Shown piece after piece: positions 46,358-51,561 of a stretch of 64,000 bases of DNA. The DNA lies in contig NZ_JAQNDO010000001.1 of the NCBI RefSeq assembly GCF_028369105.1, positions 3,713,001 to 3,777,000 of the forward strand. Reading direction: 5' to 3'. Numbering within the stretch: position 1 is the first letter of the stretch; every line of letters starts with the position of its first letter. The notes under the pieces were generated by a model, which was not told where the DNA came from, did not search any database, and saw nothing but the letters and a program-made list of their open reading frames with translations. Position numbers and translations under genes: made by a program. The stretch comes from Polyangium mundeleinium (GTDB taxonomy: Bacteria > Myxococcota_A > Polyangia > Polyangiales > Polyangiaceae).

Positions 46358-47938
46358 TCAGAGCGCCGTGCAGGCTGTGGGCGTTGGGTTCGCCTTGCAG
46401 TAGGCCGCGTCCTTCGGTGCGCCCACGATGAGCATCGCGTCTTGCGACACGAGCCGCGGGCGTGCGTTTGTCACGGCCTTGCAGGTCTTGCCGTCGGACG
46501 TCTGCGGCTCGGCCAGCGCGCACACGCCGGCCTCGTTCGGCACGCTCCACGCCTGCCCCGTCGGATAGACGAGGTTCATCGAGTACTGCCCTTCTGGCAG
46601 GCAGCCGTAGACGATGTCGAATGGGCGGCCGAAGCGCGCCGCGAGGCCCTGCTTCAAGGCCTCCTCGTCGGCGATGATCGCCGCCCCGTCTGCGGCCGTC
46701 TTGCGGCTCAGGACGAACACGCCCTTCTTCGACGGATCGACTGGATCGATGCACAACGCGGCCGGCCGCACCGCGACCGTCACCTCGGGCTCGAACGACT
46801 GGAACGGGGGCACCGGGTTCATCGGATCCGGCATCGCGGGCGGCAGCTTCGTCGACGTGAGCAGGAGGTTCTTGAGGAGCGTCAGGCCTTGCATGATCAC
46901 GCGCGGCCGCGACTGCGTCTCGATGCGCTTGTCGTTCGCGAGCCGCGGCGCGTTGATCTTCGAGAAGACCGAGCTCGGGTAGAGCTGCGGAATGCCCGCC
47001 GACTCGACCACGTGATCCTCGTGGGTGAGCTGGCCGTCGCCGTTCACGTCCTCGAGCGCCATGTAGAGCGTCGCCGCCGGGTCCTTCACGGGCAGGAAAA
47101 ACGGCGTGAGCGCGGCTGCGTCGATCTCGGCATCCGCCACGCCGGCCGAGAACGTGATGCGGATGAACGACGTGTCCTTTGGCGGGAACGTCTCGAACTC
47201 GAAGTCCGATGGCACCACGACCTTGCGTGGATCCGTGTTGCCCGCGACGCTGTCGTCCACGGCCGACGGGTAAAACACGGGTCGTTCGAGCGGGAGCACC
47301 TGCCCGAGCGTCACGCCCACGCCGGGCACATGCACGCCGACGGCCGGGATCACGAAGTTGCCCTTCCCGTCGGGCTCGCCGACGTTGACCTCCGTGTACC
47401 GCGGCGCCGCGCCCATGAGCACCTCGGCGGCGTTGTCGATTGCGCCGCCGCCCACGTCGCCCGCCGTCGGCAGGTTCGAGATGGAGAAGGCCGGGTTGAA
47501 GTCGCCGTCGCGATCGTAAAACCCGCGGAACTGGTACGTCCCCCCGCTCAGCGGCGCGATCGTCCACGTCCCGCTCGCGGTGATGTTTGGCGCCGAGGCA
47601 TCGGGGCAGCGGAGCTTGCCGTCCTTGTCGAAGACGAGCTTGTCGCGGACGCTCGCGAAGAGCACGTCGGCCGGGATCGCGTCGAGGCTCGCGGCGCCGG
47701 TGCCGAGGCCCGAAGGCGGTGGCAGGAGCCGCTTGTCGAACGCGAGTACGAGGGCCGCGCCGACGACCTTGCCGTTCTCCGTGCACGGCGGCGGGCCCGT
47801 GTAGGTCAGCGTTCCTTCGACGACGCCCGCCGGACCGCTGAACCCGGGGATATCCGGGACGAAGGTGTCGGGGTCACCGCACCCGGCGGCGAGCGCGAGG
47901 AGCAGGGCAGGGAAGGGAAGCGCGAGGGAGCGGCGCAT
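46358..47938 (-). CDS. Secreted lipoprotein of unknown function
   Basis: A 526-residue lipoprotein from ATG 47938. The signal peptide LALPFPALLLALAAGC gives lipidated Cys20. The mature part is mostly beta with Gly/Pro turns: GVVEGTLTYTGPPPC, GTYQFRGFYDRDGDFNPAF, VNGDGQLTHEDHVVE (calcium-binding EF-like loop). It carries about eight Cys and no catalytic signature. The gene overlaps the end of the inverted-repeat element only in its 3' flank. Neighbouring genes do not suggest a pathway. Confidence 0.8.
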   Translation of the reverse strand: MRRSLALPFPALLLALAAGCGDPDTFVPDIPGFSGPAGVVEGTLTYTGPPPCTENGKVVGAALVLAFDKRLLPPPSGLGTGAASLDAIPADVLFASVRDKLVFDKDGKLRCPDASAPNITASGTWTIAPLSGGTYQFRGFYDRDGDFNPAFSISNLPTAGDVGGGAIDNAAEVLMGAAPRYTEVNVGEPDGKGNFVIPAVGVHVPGVGVTLGQVLPLERPVFYPSAVDDSVAGNTDPRKVVVPSDFEFETFPPKDTSFIRITFSAGVADAEIDAAALTPFFLPVKDPAATLYMALEDVNGDGQLTHEDHVVESAGIPQLYPSSVFSKINAPRLANDKRIETQSRPRVIMQGLTLLKNLLLTSTKLPPAMPDPMNPVPPFQSFEPEVTVAVRPAALCIDPVDPSKKGVFVLSRKTAADGAAIIADEEALKQGLAARFGRPFDIVYGCLPEGQYSMNLVYPTGQAWSVPNEAGVCALAEPQTSDGKTCKAVTNARPRLVSQDAMLIVGAPKDAAYCKANPTPTACTAL

Positions 47939-48002: not shown

Positions 48003-48233
48003 TCAGCCGGCCGCGCGCTTCGACATGGCGTCGAGCACCTCCTGGAGCTCTGGGAACCGACCTGCCGACTGCTTCGAGAAGATCAGCTCGCCGTCGACGA
48101 TCACGTCGAACTGACTGGGCTTTCCGATCTCGAGCTTGCTGTCGACGTCGAACGCATCCTTGATGGCGGCCGCGAAACTCACGGCCCGGGGCTTGTAGTT
48201 TCAGACGTGGCAGTACTTGATCACGACGTTCAT
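48003..48233 (-). CDS. SelW/Rdx-family selenoprotein with CxxU redox motif (TGA at 48203-48201 = Sec)
   Basis: A 76-residue protein if TGA at codon 11 is read as selenocysteine. ATG 48233 follows AGGAGG at ideal spacing. The N-terminus MNVVIKYCHV carries Cys8, then Sec11 (CHVU), followed by NYKPRAVSFAAAIKDAF, LEIGKPSQFDVIVDGELIF and SKQSAGRFPELQEVLDAM: the SelW pattern of a thioredoxin-like fold with CxxU, NYxPRA, FxVxVDG and SKxxxGRFP, all in order. The frame stays open for 65 codons after the TGA and shows family similarity only after it, so simple termination is unlikely. A SECIS-like hairpin follows. It lies 59 bp after an exported protein gene on the same strand. The expected role is a redox/GSH-linked selenoenzyme; a Sec machinery (selA-D) must exist elsewhere in the genome. 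Confidence 0.88.
48168..48186 (-). promoter_or_regulatory. Candidate bacterial SECIS element
   Basis: On the minus strand GGCCGTG AGTTT CGCGGCC folds into a 7-bp stem with a 5-nt loop. The loop has G as its second base, 23 nt after the TGA. Bacterial SECIS elements typically place such a G within about 16-37 nt. The element lies inside the coding sequence, as is usual in bacteria. Confidence 0.7.
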
Positions 48234-48292
48234 GGACGCCTCCTCGGACGTCCATGGATGCCGGCGCGGCCGAGCGCAAGGGGCGAGGCGCT

Positions 48293-49669
48293 TCACGCCG
48301 AGGGGCGTTCGTCCCGCGCGAGCCAGAGAGCGAGGGCGACCGTGAACGCGAGGGCCGCGGCGGCCGCGACGGCGTTCCGCGTGCGCTTCGAGCGTGCACG
48401 TGCGCGGGGCTTCTCGCGTGGGCTCGCCGCCACGGGACGCACCTCGGGCTTTCCCGTGGGGGCCGAGAGCGTGCCGGGCGCGCCGTCTGCGGGCAGATCC
48501 TCGCGATCGAAGAGCGCGTCCTCGGCGAGCGCGCGTCGCACGTCCCGGTCGAGCCAGTGCGAGATCCACAGGCGTCTTCCTTCCGGCAGGCCCATCACGC
48601 GGCGGAGCTCGGGCGTCATGGCGCGCGCCACGTCCTCCGGTTTCGCCTCGAAATCGTGCAGGAGGCGCGCCGACGCGGGCGGATCTTTCCAGACATACCG
48701 CGAGGGCCCGACGAGCACGAGGTGCGTGCGGCGCGCGGGCGTGCGCGGCGGCTTGAACGCGAGATCCGCGGAGAACTTCCAGCCCTCGTCCGTCCGCGGG
48801 AACTGCCGTGCGCGCAGGATCTTCACGACACACGTCGCGAGCTCGCGTGTCGCCTCGTCGCCCTTCTCGCCTGGTGATCGCAGCGACGCCGTGTCGCCCT
48901 TCGGCCGGATCGAAGCCTCGATCGTCACCTTCGTCGCCTCGCCGGGGCGGCGCTCCAGGAACGCCTCGTAGCAGTCGAGCAAGGGACCCACGCGCGCCCG
49001 CAGCACACGCGCGATCGCCTCGCCGCTCGGCGCGACGGCCTTCGGTTCGGCGCGCACCGACTCCACCACGAGCGGGATCGCCGCGCCTTCCTGTGCTTCG
49101 TCCGCAGGCGGCTCCGCGCGCGGCGGCTCGCGGCGCGCGAGGATCACGCGCGGCGACGCGAACGAGACATGCACGGCCGGCGTCATGATCTCGAGCCAGC
49201 CTCCCGGCGGCGTGACCACGTCGAGCACGGCGAACGAAAAGTTCCGATCGACGTAGCTCTTCGTCCACGCCGCGTCGAAGGGCTGTTCGCCCGCGGAGGG
49301 GGCGACGACGAAGCCCGAGAGCGTCGATCGATCCAGCACCCACGCCGCAGGAGGCGCCGGCGCGCGGCCGCGGGTGCGTCGCTCGTGCGGCTCGACGAGC
49401 GTGTGCACGAGCGCCGCGAGATCGAGCTTGGGCAGCGGCTCGATCGTCGGCGTGCTCGGCGTCGGCAGGCCGACGAGCACGCGCGGCGCGGCGGGCGCGA
49501 GGCGCGCGGCGAAGAGCACGTGTTCACGCCCGCTCGCCTCGTCGTGGCTGACGATCAGGTAGTCCTCGTGCACCACCGGGGACGGCGTCGCACCGCCCAC
49601 GGCCACGGCGCCCGCCGGGGACACGAGCGCCACGATCGAGAGCGCGACGAGCGGGCCGAGCGCCTTCAT
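48293..49669 (-). CDS. Exported protein with TonB/AgmX-like domain and C-terminal membrane anchor
   Basis: A 458-residue protein from ATG 49669, overlapping the acyltransferase stop (ATGA). A signal peptide (LVALSIVALVSPAGAVAVGG) begins it. The N-terminal ~220 residues show a DUF2330-like pattern (EDYLIVSHDEASGREHVLFAARL, YVDRNFSFAVLDVVTPPGG). A middle ~90-residue beta domain (CYEAFLERRPGE, VTIEASIRPKG) recalls AgmX/TonB C-terminal modules. The end has a basic segment and one membrane helix (AVAAAAALAFTVALALWLA). It is exported with its C-terminus anchored. The role is unknown; the downstream selenoprotein may share its transcript. Confidence 0.75.
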   Translation of the reverse strand: MKALGPLVALSIVALVSPAGAVAVGGATPSPVVHEDYLIVSHDEASGREHVLFAARLAPAAPRVLVGLPTPSTPTIEPLPKLDLAALVHTLVEPHERRTRGRAPAPPAAWVLDRSTLSGFVVAPSAGEQPFDAAWTKSYVDRNFSFAVLDVVTPPGGWLEIMTPAVHVSFASPRVILARREPPRAEPPADEAQEGAAIPLVVESVRAEPKAVAPSGEAIARVLRARVGPLLDCYEAFLERRPGEATKVTIEASIRPKGDTASLRSPGEKGDEATRELATCVVKILRARQFPRTDEGWKFSADLAFKPPRTPARRTHLVLVGPSRYVWKDPPASARLLHDFEAKPEDVARAMTPELRRVMGLPEGRRLWISHWLDRDVRRALAEDALFDREDLPADGAPGTLSAPTGKPEVRPVAASPREKPRARARSKRTRNAVAAAAALAFTVALALWLARDERPSA

Positions 49670-50738: not shown

Positions 50739-51224
50739 ATGATGTCCGCGCGTTCGATCTTCGTCATCGCTTGCTCGTTTCTCGCGCTCAACGTGTTCGC
50801 TTGCGCCACAGGCTCGACCGGCGGCGTGGGCGGCGGAGGCGGTGAGGGAGGCGATGACTGGGGGGGTCCAGGACCCAGCTCGAGCTCGAGCAGCAGCGGC
50901 TCGGGTGGCAGTGGCGGCAGCGGCGGCGGCGGCGTCCCCATGACCACCTGCGACATGAACTCGATGGACTGCTCCACGTGCTCAGCGTGTTCGGGCACCA
51001 CCGCCGACGGCCTCTGCAACGCCGAGACCCAGGCCTGCAACAACAGCATCGATTGTGGCGACTTCCTCACGTGCATCGACGGGTGCGCGGACGGCGATTC
51101 GGCCTGTTACACGAGCTGCGAGACGGCCTACCCGACCGGGTACAGCATCTTCAACGACTACGCCTCGTGCGTGATCTGCAACGACTGCTACGTGCGCTGC
51201 AACGGCGCGGATTCCTGCATCTAG
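50739..51224 (+). CDS. Cys-rich lipoprotein with Gly/Ser linker
   Basis: A 161-residue lipoprotein. ATG 50739 (followed by ATG 50742) has AGGAGG upstream. The signal peptide ends ALNVFAC. A Gly/Ser/Asp low-complexity spacer (residues ~24-66) is followed by a ~90-residue domain with 16 Cys (CSTCSACSG, CNNSIDCGDFLTCIDGCADGDSACY, CVICNDCYVRCNG). This fits a disulfide-rich cell-surface module common in the group. The function is unknown. Confidence 0.82.
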   Translation: MMSARSIFVIACSFLALNVFACATGSTGGVGGGGGEGGDDWGGPGPSSSSSSSGSGGSGGSGGGGVPMTTCDMNSMDCSTCSACSGTTADGLCNAETQACNNSIDCGDFLTCIDGCADGDSACYTSCETAYPTGYSIFNDYASCVICNDCYVRCNGADSCI

Positions 51225-51265
51225 CCTTCGTGTCCTCGTTTTTCCAACGCCCATGATGACCGGAG

Positions 51266-51561
51266 GGTGTCGCCGCGTGTCGACCCCCTCGGTACACGGT
51301 GACCCGCAGGTGTCGCCGCGTGTCGACCCCCTCGGTACACGGTGACCCGCAGGTGTCGCCGCGTGTCGACCCCCTCGGTACACGAGGACCGGCGGGTGTC
51401 GCCGCGTGTCGACCCCCTCGGTACACGGTGACCCGCAGGTGTCGCCGCGTGTCGACCCCCTCGGTACACGAGGACCGGCGGGTGTCGCCACGTGTCGACC
51501 CCCTCGGTGCACGAGGACCGGCGGGTGTCGCCGCGTGTCGACCCCCTCGGGAGGCCGTCGT
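51266..51561. repeat. Seven-copy 43-bp minisatellite
   Basis: Unit GGTGTCGCCGCGTGTCGACC plus CCCTCGGTAC plus 13 bases that alternate between ACGGTGACCCGCA and ACGAGGACCGGCG. Copies start at 51266, 51309, 51352, 51395, 51438, 51481 and 51524; the last is truncated near 51561. It fills the gap between convergent genes (51225-51566). Confidence 0.95.

Follow-up and report, generated by a model that had tools for sequence, protein, structure and literature searches.

Rdx proteins with the motif CxxU are listed as a bacterial selenoprotein family (PMC9312934), and a 2026 review describes the SELENOW-like family as PF10262, with CxxU and one Sec (PMC13188914). SelW-like selenoproteins have been described from clostridia, an actinobacterium, deltaproteobacteria and marine metagenomes (PMC1794560, PMC2398784), and annotation is known to overlook SelW genes (PMC4607533). 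For Campylobacter jejuni SelW, translation past the UGA is backed by Ribo-seq and mass spectrometry (PMC11955535). These statements follow the portions of the papers that were available to us. The window analyzed here, a whole stretch of 64,000 nucleotides of Polyangium DNA, contains at 48003..48233 on the minus strand what is, by sequence analysis, almost certainly a gene for a SelW-like (Rdx family) selenoprotein, with Sec inserted at an in-frame UGA. It shares with the described bacterial SelW-like CxxU selenoproteins the family, size, fold, motif, Sec position and a SECIS directly after the UGA, and differs, as far as we could see, only in its host lineage, Polyangium. Likewise, the C. jejuni gene, a small gene on CJnc60, is described in the available text as encoding about 80 residues, lying outside annotation and having an in-frame UGA. 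However, the C. jejuni host is epsilonproteobacterial, and the Polyangium product scores 76.1 bits on the equivalog model NF041051 (SelTWH_Campy), under the curated cut-off of 88. Cys-type prokaryotic Rdx proteins (2fa8, 2obk, 2p0g, 3dex, 2oka and 2ojl) have the same fold, but the CxxC genes of Polyangiales, which have no UGA, lie in a branch apart from selW. Since SelW-like CxxU proteins are catalogued across bacteria and UGA read-through is supported in Campylobacter, we consider selW a well-supported member of an established family. The literature we searched held no paper on selenocysteine in Polyangium (by title) and none on SelW in myxobacteria. The finding corrects the reading of a gene hidden by a stop codon, in a genus without a selenoprotein report in that literature, and the selW loci provide a well-sampled SECIS in which synonymous sites covary.

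The initial annotation had placed a hidden selenoprotein at 48003-48233 without stating the strand. The position stands, and the strand is minus: the ATG is at 48233, the Sec UGA at 48203-48201 and the stop TGA at 48005-48003. Translation with TGA as U gave exactly the frame that had been claimed, an ATG and nine codons, then TGA, 65 further codons and a TGA stop. The product has 76 residues, with a predicted Sec at position 11 (codon 48201..48203, minus strand), and reads MNVVIKYCHVUNYKPRAVSFAAAIKDAFDVDSKLEIGKPSQFDVIVDGELIFSKQSAGRFPELQEVLDAMSKRAAG. All four motifs attributed to it (CHVU, NYKPRA, FDVIVDG and SKQSAGRFPE) are there. The CHVU redox motif occupies residues 8-11 (48201..48212, minus strand), and both C8 and position 11 are invariant in the 17 aligned Sec-type rows. 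The strong Shine-Dalgarno that had been described is GAGGAGG, read from the sequence at 48239..48245 (minus strand), 5 nt before the ATG; GGAGG at this place is common to all six Polyangium genomes. Translation of the plus strand of 48003-48233 gave no comparable protein.

The assignment to the SelW family agrees with two profile models. Pfam Rdx (PF10262) matches the product with 60.6 bits against a cut-off of 22.6 (E 1.7e-16), and TIGR02174 (NCBIfam, SelT/SelW/SelH) with 49.7 bits against 34.2. An AlphaFold2 model built from an alignment of 17 relatives reached a pLDDT of 94.6 and a pTM of 0.82, and has residues 8-11, the CxxU, between a strand (3-7) and a helix (14-28). Foldseek with this model returned 22 matches at E <= 0.001. 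Chains from six bacterial Rdx-family entries, those named above, take the first 21 places, and the other match is MIEN1; mouse SelW (2npb) follows at rank 23 with E 1.3e-3. A sequence profile of the 17 relatives led to eight distinct solved sequences, mouse SelW 2npb among them, and recovered the same Rdx-family structure entries as Foldseek. The predicted fold of Polyangium SelW is thus, with confidence, SelW/thioredoxin-like.

By analogy with the family, Cys8 and Sec11 would act as redox partners in a reaction of the thiol-disulfide or peroxide-related kind. Redox function is what CxxU usually serves in a thioredoxin-like fold. The position of CxxU within such a fold in our model, together with verrucomicrobial relatives that have a second Sec, another redox residue, in place of the first Cys, makes it unlikely that this is a working Sec gene in which Sec11 instead has a non-redox role, as a ligand of a metal or of something else or as a residue of a binding site. 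That alternative nonetheless keeps some weight: in one SelW-like locus, L042, Ser replaces the first Cys, we found no partner gene common across clades, and the available text of a 2026 review describes this and similar bacterial selenoproteins as largely uncharacterised in function (PMC13188914).

We surveyed 74 genomes of the family (Verrucomicrobia) to which the genome of locus L117 belongs. An Rdx gene was present in 21 of the 74, with 22 matches: 13 with two TGAs, nine with one and none with zero. The 13 two-TGA matches (L136-L142, L144-L146, L154, L155 and L157, including the same genes as L098 and L117) come from 12 genomes, one of which has two identical copies. Their TGAs fall exactly at both redox positions (UGMU, UGQU, UGVU or USKU), and each locus has a single SECIS-like hairpin after the TGAs, which forms 5-6 of the 7 pairs around the loop AGUUU. 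tRNA-Sec scored 61.3 and 62.7 bits in the two UxxU genomes tested. The tree puts UxxU in two spots (10 and 2 rows; two changes), a placement that is weak because the tree has few columns. Amphioxus and the alga Ostreococcus lucimarinus have a recorded UxxU SELENOW (PMC7539508), and two prokaryotic reviews give SELENOW-like proteins only as CxxU (PMC9312934, PMC13188914), in the sections of these papers available to us. Searches for UxxU with selenoprotein or selenoprotein W, and for SelW with Verrucomicrobi- (the latter by title), returned no bacterial UxxU SelW from the partly accessible literature. This bacterial branch is a natural test of what the second Sec adds.

Sec decoding requires more than a UGA, and the initial annotation had taken a genome without selA, selB, selC and selD as evidence against its reading. 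All four are present in the Polyangium genome (13.25 Mb, 2 contigs): selA with 495.1 bits, selB with 283.6 bits for its main stretch, above the cut-off, and selD with 394.9 bits and no internal stop. A single strong tRNA-Sec (71.3 bits), called by ARAGORN as tRNA-SeC with anticodon tca, lies 59 nt from the match edge of the divergent selB, a 660-aa open frame. By gene content, then, this is a Sec-decoding genome.

We then considered how the UGA is conserved. Of 59 genomes, that of the window included, 26 have an Rdx gene. Sixteen genomes (17 loci) have one in-frame TGA and 10 have no stop, and every stop reported inside the Rdx matches of the 59 genomes is TGA. In all six Polyangium genomes, again including our own, selW has the TGA and the domain behind it is intact; four named Polyangium contigs carry selW with 96-99% protein identity. 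Counting tRNA-Sec as strong above 60 bits, a threshold chosen in the analysis, we found it in 23 of the 59 genomes: 15 of 16 with TGA-Rdx, 1 of 10 with stop-free Rdx and 7 of 33 without an Rdx gene. Fisher's test of the first two groups gave p 3e-5, which is not corrected for kinship and is indicative only, because six of the 59 genomes belong to one genus. The TGA-Rdx genome in which no tRNA-Sec was found, G056, is 95% complete and in 1420 contigs.

A wider scan of genome contigs returned 161 relatives of selW, of which the best 80 were kept. Seventy-nine of these nearest homologues have TGA at the Sec site with the domain continuing beyond it, two of them with a second TGA. Homologues that end at the TGA, the other finding that the initial annotation had held would contradict it, are therefore not what we see, either here or in the six Polyangium genomes. 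Of the two scan patterns, one has Cys at the site (and apparently matches Cys codons only) and the other leaves the site out, so the scan is not biased toward Sec; ranking relatives by likeness to a Sec-type query may favour Sec forms. tRNA-Sec above 60 bits was found in 40 of 47 genomes of homologue loci tested (39 of 46 of those with TGA). Two of the remaining seven had no tRNA-Sec match at the cut-off and five had weaker matches only. The single homologue of the best 80 with Cys at the Sec site, L105, is from Nitrospira, and its genome still has a tRNA-Sec above 60 bits.

A search for Cys at the Sec position in relatives had been suggested, and it found L105 and L042. Could the UGA be read as Trp or some other residue, without selenium? 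This is highly improbable: the non-TGA SelW loci (L105, L042 and nine rows of a Cys branch) have Cys at the site and none of the SelW loci read has Trp, selW itself terminates in TGA, and tRNA-Sec, SelA, SelB and SelD are in the genome. The Cys branch consists of nine of the ten stop-free Polyangiales Rdx genes (CxxC, no UGA), which form a group of their own in the tree with support 100/100. Since they are a separate branch, they are not direct Cys orthologues, or simple Sec-to-Cys swaps, of selW. A Cys-for-Sec comparison within Polyangiales was accordingly dropped; of the Cys forms, L105 and L042 alone group with the Sec forms. L042 (genome G008) and L043 (G043), which carry an insertion ahead of the FPE motif, make up a second type of SelW-like gene. 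The redox motif of L043 is CxxU; that of L042 is SQAC, with Ser for the first Cys and Cys at the Sec position, despite a strong tRNA-Sec in its genome.

Following the Sec codon, the selW mRNA would form a bacterial SECIS hairpin (48168..48186, minus strand), with a 7-bp stem and the 5-nt loop AGUUU, or 8 bp and a 3-nt loop. Nucleotides 15-21 after the TGA pair with 27-33, and G is second in the loop, just as had been described. Single-sequence folding adds the eighth pair, A-U, and gives an MFE of -14.4 kcal/mol for 44 nt. The bacterial SECIS model, in the part of the review available to us, has a loop of 3-9 nt, a stem of 4-16 bp, a G at loop position 1 or 2, a UGA-to-loop distance of 16-37 nt and an MFE <= -7.5 (PMC13188914). 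The selW hairpin fits this model: its loop of 5 nt has G in second place and lies 21 nt from the UGA, its stem has 7 bp and its MFE is -14.4 kcal/mol. Its fold energy is not significant for the composition of the window (z-score -1.36; 21 of 200 shuffles fold as well), and we rejected energy as proof of a SECIS. Among the 1140 TGAs in this 69% GC window, 55 (4.8%) are followed, within the permitted range, by a hairpin that has >=7 bp and a G early in its loop. Given these numbers, the hairpin alone is weak evidence. The exact stem place and loop signature occur at one of the 1140 TGAs, which must be selW itself.

What settles the question, and makes the hairpin more than chance, is covariation across homologues. 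In an alignment of 17 sequences (14 distinct), 96.9% of cells are paired and four of the seven pairs show changes on both sides. Structures slid by 1-3 columns score 0.022-0.118 for covariation, the hairpin itself 0.468. All 96 TGA loci (78 distinct stretches) have the loop NGNNU, with G2 and U5 invariant, and form 5-7 of the 7 pairs; in seven of them the hairpin is shifted by one inserted codon. The Actinomycetota loci L073, L084, L086, L094, L095, L097 and L121 have one extra codon after Sec (CPVUDGYD etc.), and 3 more nt separate the UGA from their SECIS, whose loop is kept.

The hairpin overlaps coding sequence, and we examined the pairs 21/33 and 24/30, which join third codon positions, in 71 distinct unshifted sequences. 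Pair 21/33 forms in 70 of 71 and pair 24/30 in all 71, with shuffle maxima of 50 and 55. With the amino acids fixed, 21/33 forms in 50 of 51 sequences (C-G 21, G-C 20, U-G 6, U-A 3) and 24/30 in 33 of 33 (C-G 20, G-C 11, A-U 2), so coding constraint cannot explain these two pairs. Pair 18/36 is weaker, forming in 41 of 71, equal to its shuffle maximum. Judging from these alignments, the selW hairpin is conserved by compensatory change. Its codons, 12-25, are unchanged among the six Polyangium genomes. In codons 26-75, 19 vary, and 11 of these 19 post-UGA codons also differ in the encoded amino acid, mostly in a single species; with so few changes, and this share of amino-acid changes, the six genomes give no strong signal of codon-level selection. 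The Cys form L105 keeps 3 of 7 stem pairs, counted by eye, and on this one case has lost the hairpin.

The initial annotation had considered the locus hard to explain by chance or as a pseudogene, and the family match and the covariation of the hairpin across homologues bear this out. Although the frame has a stop codon under table 11, we give practically no credence to a pseudogene, an Rdx gene with a nonsense mutation whose translation ends after 10 codons, because six Polyangium genomes, 16 of 59 genomes overall and 79 of the 80 nearest homologues share a TGA at this position, all stops reported inside Rdx matches are TGA, the domain behind it is intact, and the hairpin covaries at synonymous sites. 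For the selenoprotein we favour, the genes present suggest the following route. SelA and SelD would make Sec-tRNA-Sec, and SelB with tRNA-Sec would deliver Sec. SelB would bind the loop, with its invariant G2 and U5, of the hairpin starting 14 nt downstream of the UGA. Sec-tRNA would be brought to the UGA in this way, and the ribosome would continue for 65 codons to yield the 76-residue thioredoxin-fold protein.

SelW is probably not the sole selenoprotein of this genome, because TGA genes with hairpins also occur in AhpD-like and Prx-like families. We searched the genome with PF10262, PF00384, PF00578 and PF02627 and with models of selA, selB and selD. PF10262 had 1 match, with TGA; of 8 matches to PF00384, 21 to PF00578 and 4 to PF02627, 0, 1 and 1 had TGA, respectively. 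The selA, selB and selD matches have no stop inside. The PF02627 match with TGA is an AhpD-like (CMD) gene with CFYU (L167 from 1354 on; C1:6131753-6132292 and beyond, plus strand). Its hairpin, CACGCAG-AGUUU-CUGCGUG, is a perfect 7 bp, starts 9 nt after the UGA and has a loop identical to that of selW. Five of the six Polyangium genomes have the gene with its TGA (91-99% identity); it was not found in the sixth, G001. It is likely a second selenoprotein. The PF00578 match with TGA, a Prx-like (AhpC-TSA) gene (L168; C1:1579886-1580245, minus strand) with W-U-L-Y-C, a UxxC motif, has a hairpin of 8 bp behind the TGA and an N-terminus like that of a lipoprotein; it is a likely third selenoprotein. 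The eight PF00384 stretches, from the molybdopterin oxidoreductases, a group to which FdhA belongs, have no internal stop. At C1:6609482-6610761, L129 and L135 carry a molybdopterin oxidoreductase domain in two frames 26 nt apart and resemble one gene split over two frames, by a frameshift, a sequencing error or another cause.

Polyangium is an aerobic soil myxobacterium. According to the accessible text of a 2006 survey, the FdhA and SelD families are largely responsible for upkeep of the Sec trait (PMC1794560), and a 2026 review, as far as available, states that selenoproteins are rarely retained by aerobic bacteria (PMC13188914). No Sec-type FdhA or SelD was seen in the families searched in our genome. 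It is quite possible, if somewhat short of probable, that Polyangium maintains its complete Sec machinery for the sake of small proteins related to thioredoxin (SelW, AhpD-like and Prx-like), without a Sec-type FdhA or SelD, and that the Sec form is nearly obligatory in its SelW branch, as 79 of the 80 nearest homologues (the best 80 of 161) would have it. Against the FdhA/SelD background, the Sec trait of this genome seems to rest on small redox selenoproteins.

Finally, we looked at the gene neighbourhood. The upstream neighbour (48293..49669, minus strand) lies 59 nt from the selW start, and the downstream neighbour (46358..47938, minus strand), which has a lipoprotein-like N-terminus, starts 64 nt after selW. 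Both are kept in the six Polyangium genomes, and neither has a Pfam match at E <= 0.001. Among the 34 loci compared, these flanking genes had no match in the non-Polyangium ones, some of which have short flanks. The second upstream gene is an acyltransferase with one distant match, at L057. Neighbours are shared within clades (a Reyranella group and a Binatota-like group) and not across them, and we rejected the neighbourhood as a clue to function; in the 25 largest clusters of ORFs around 77 of the 80 loci, the sole cross-clade exception is L091, in the largest cluster. Elsewhere in the window, between genes near 51100 and 51600, a tandem array at 51258-51550 consists of 6.6 copies of a 43-bp unit with 93% matches and a higher-order unit of 129 bp.
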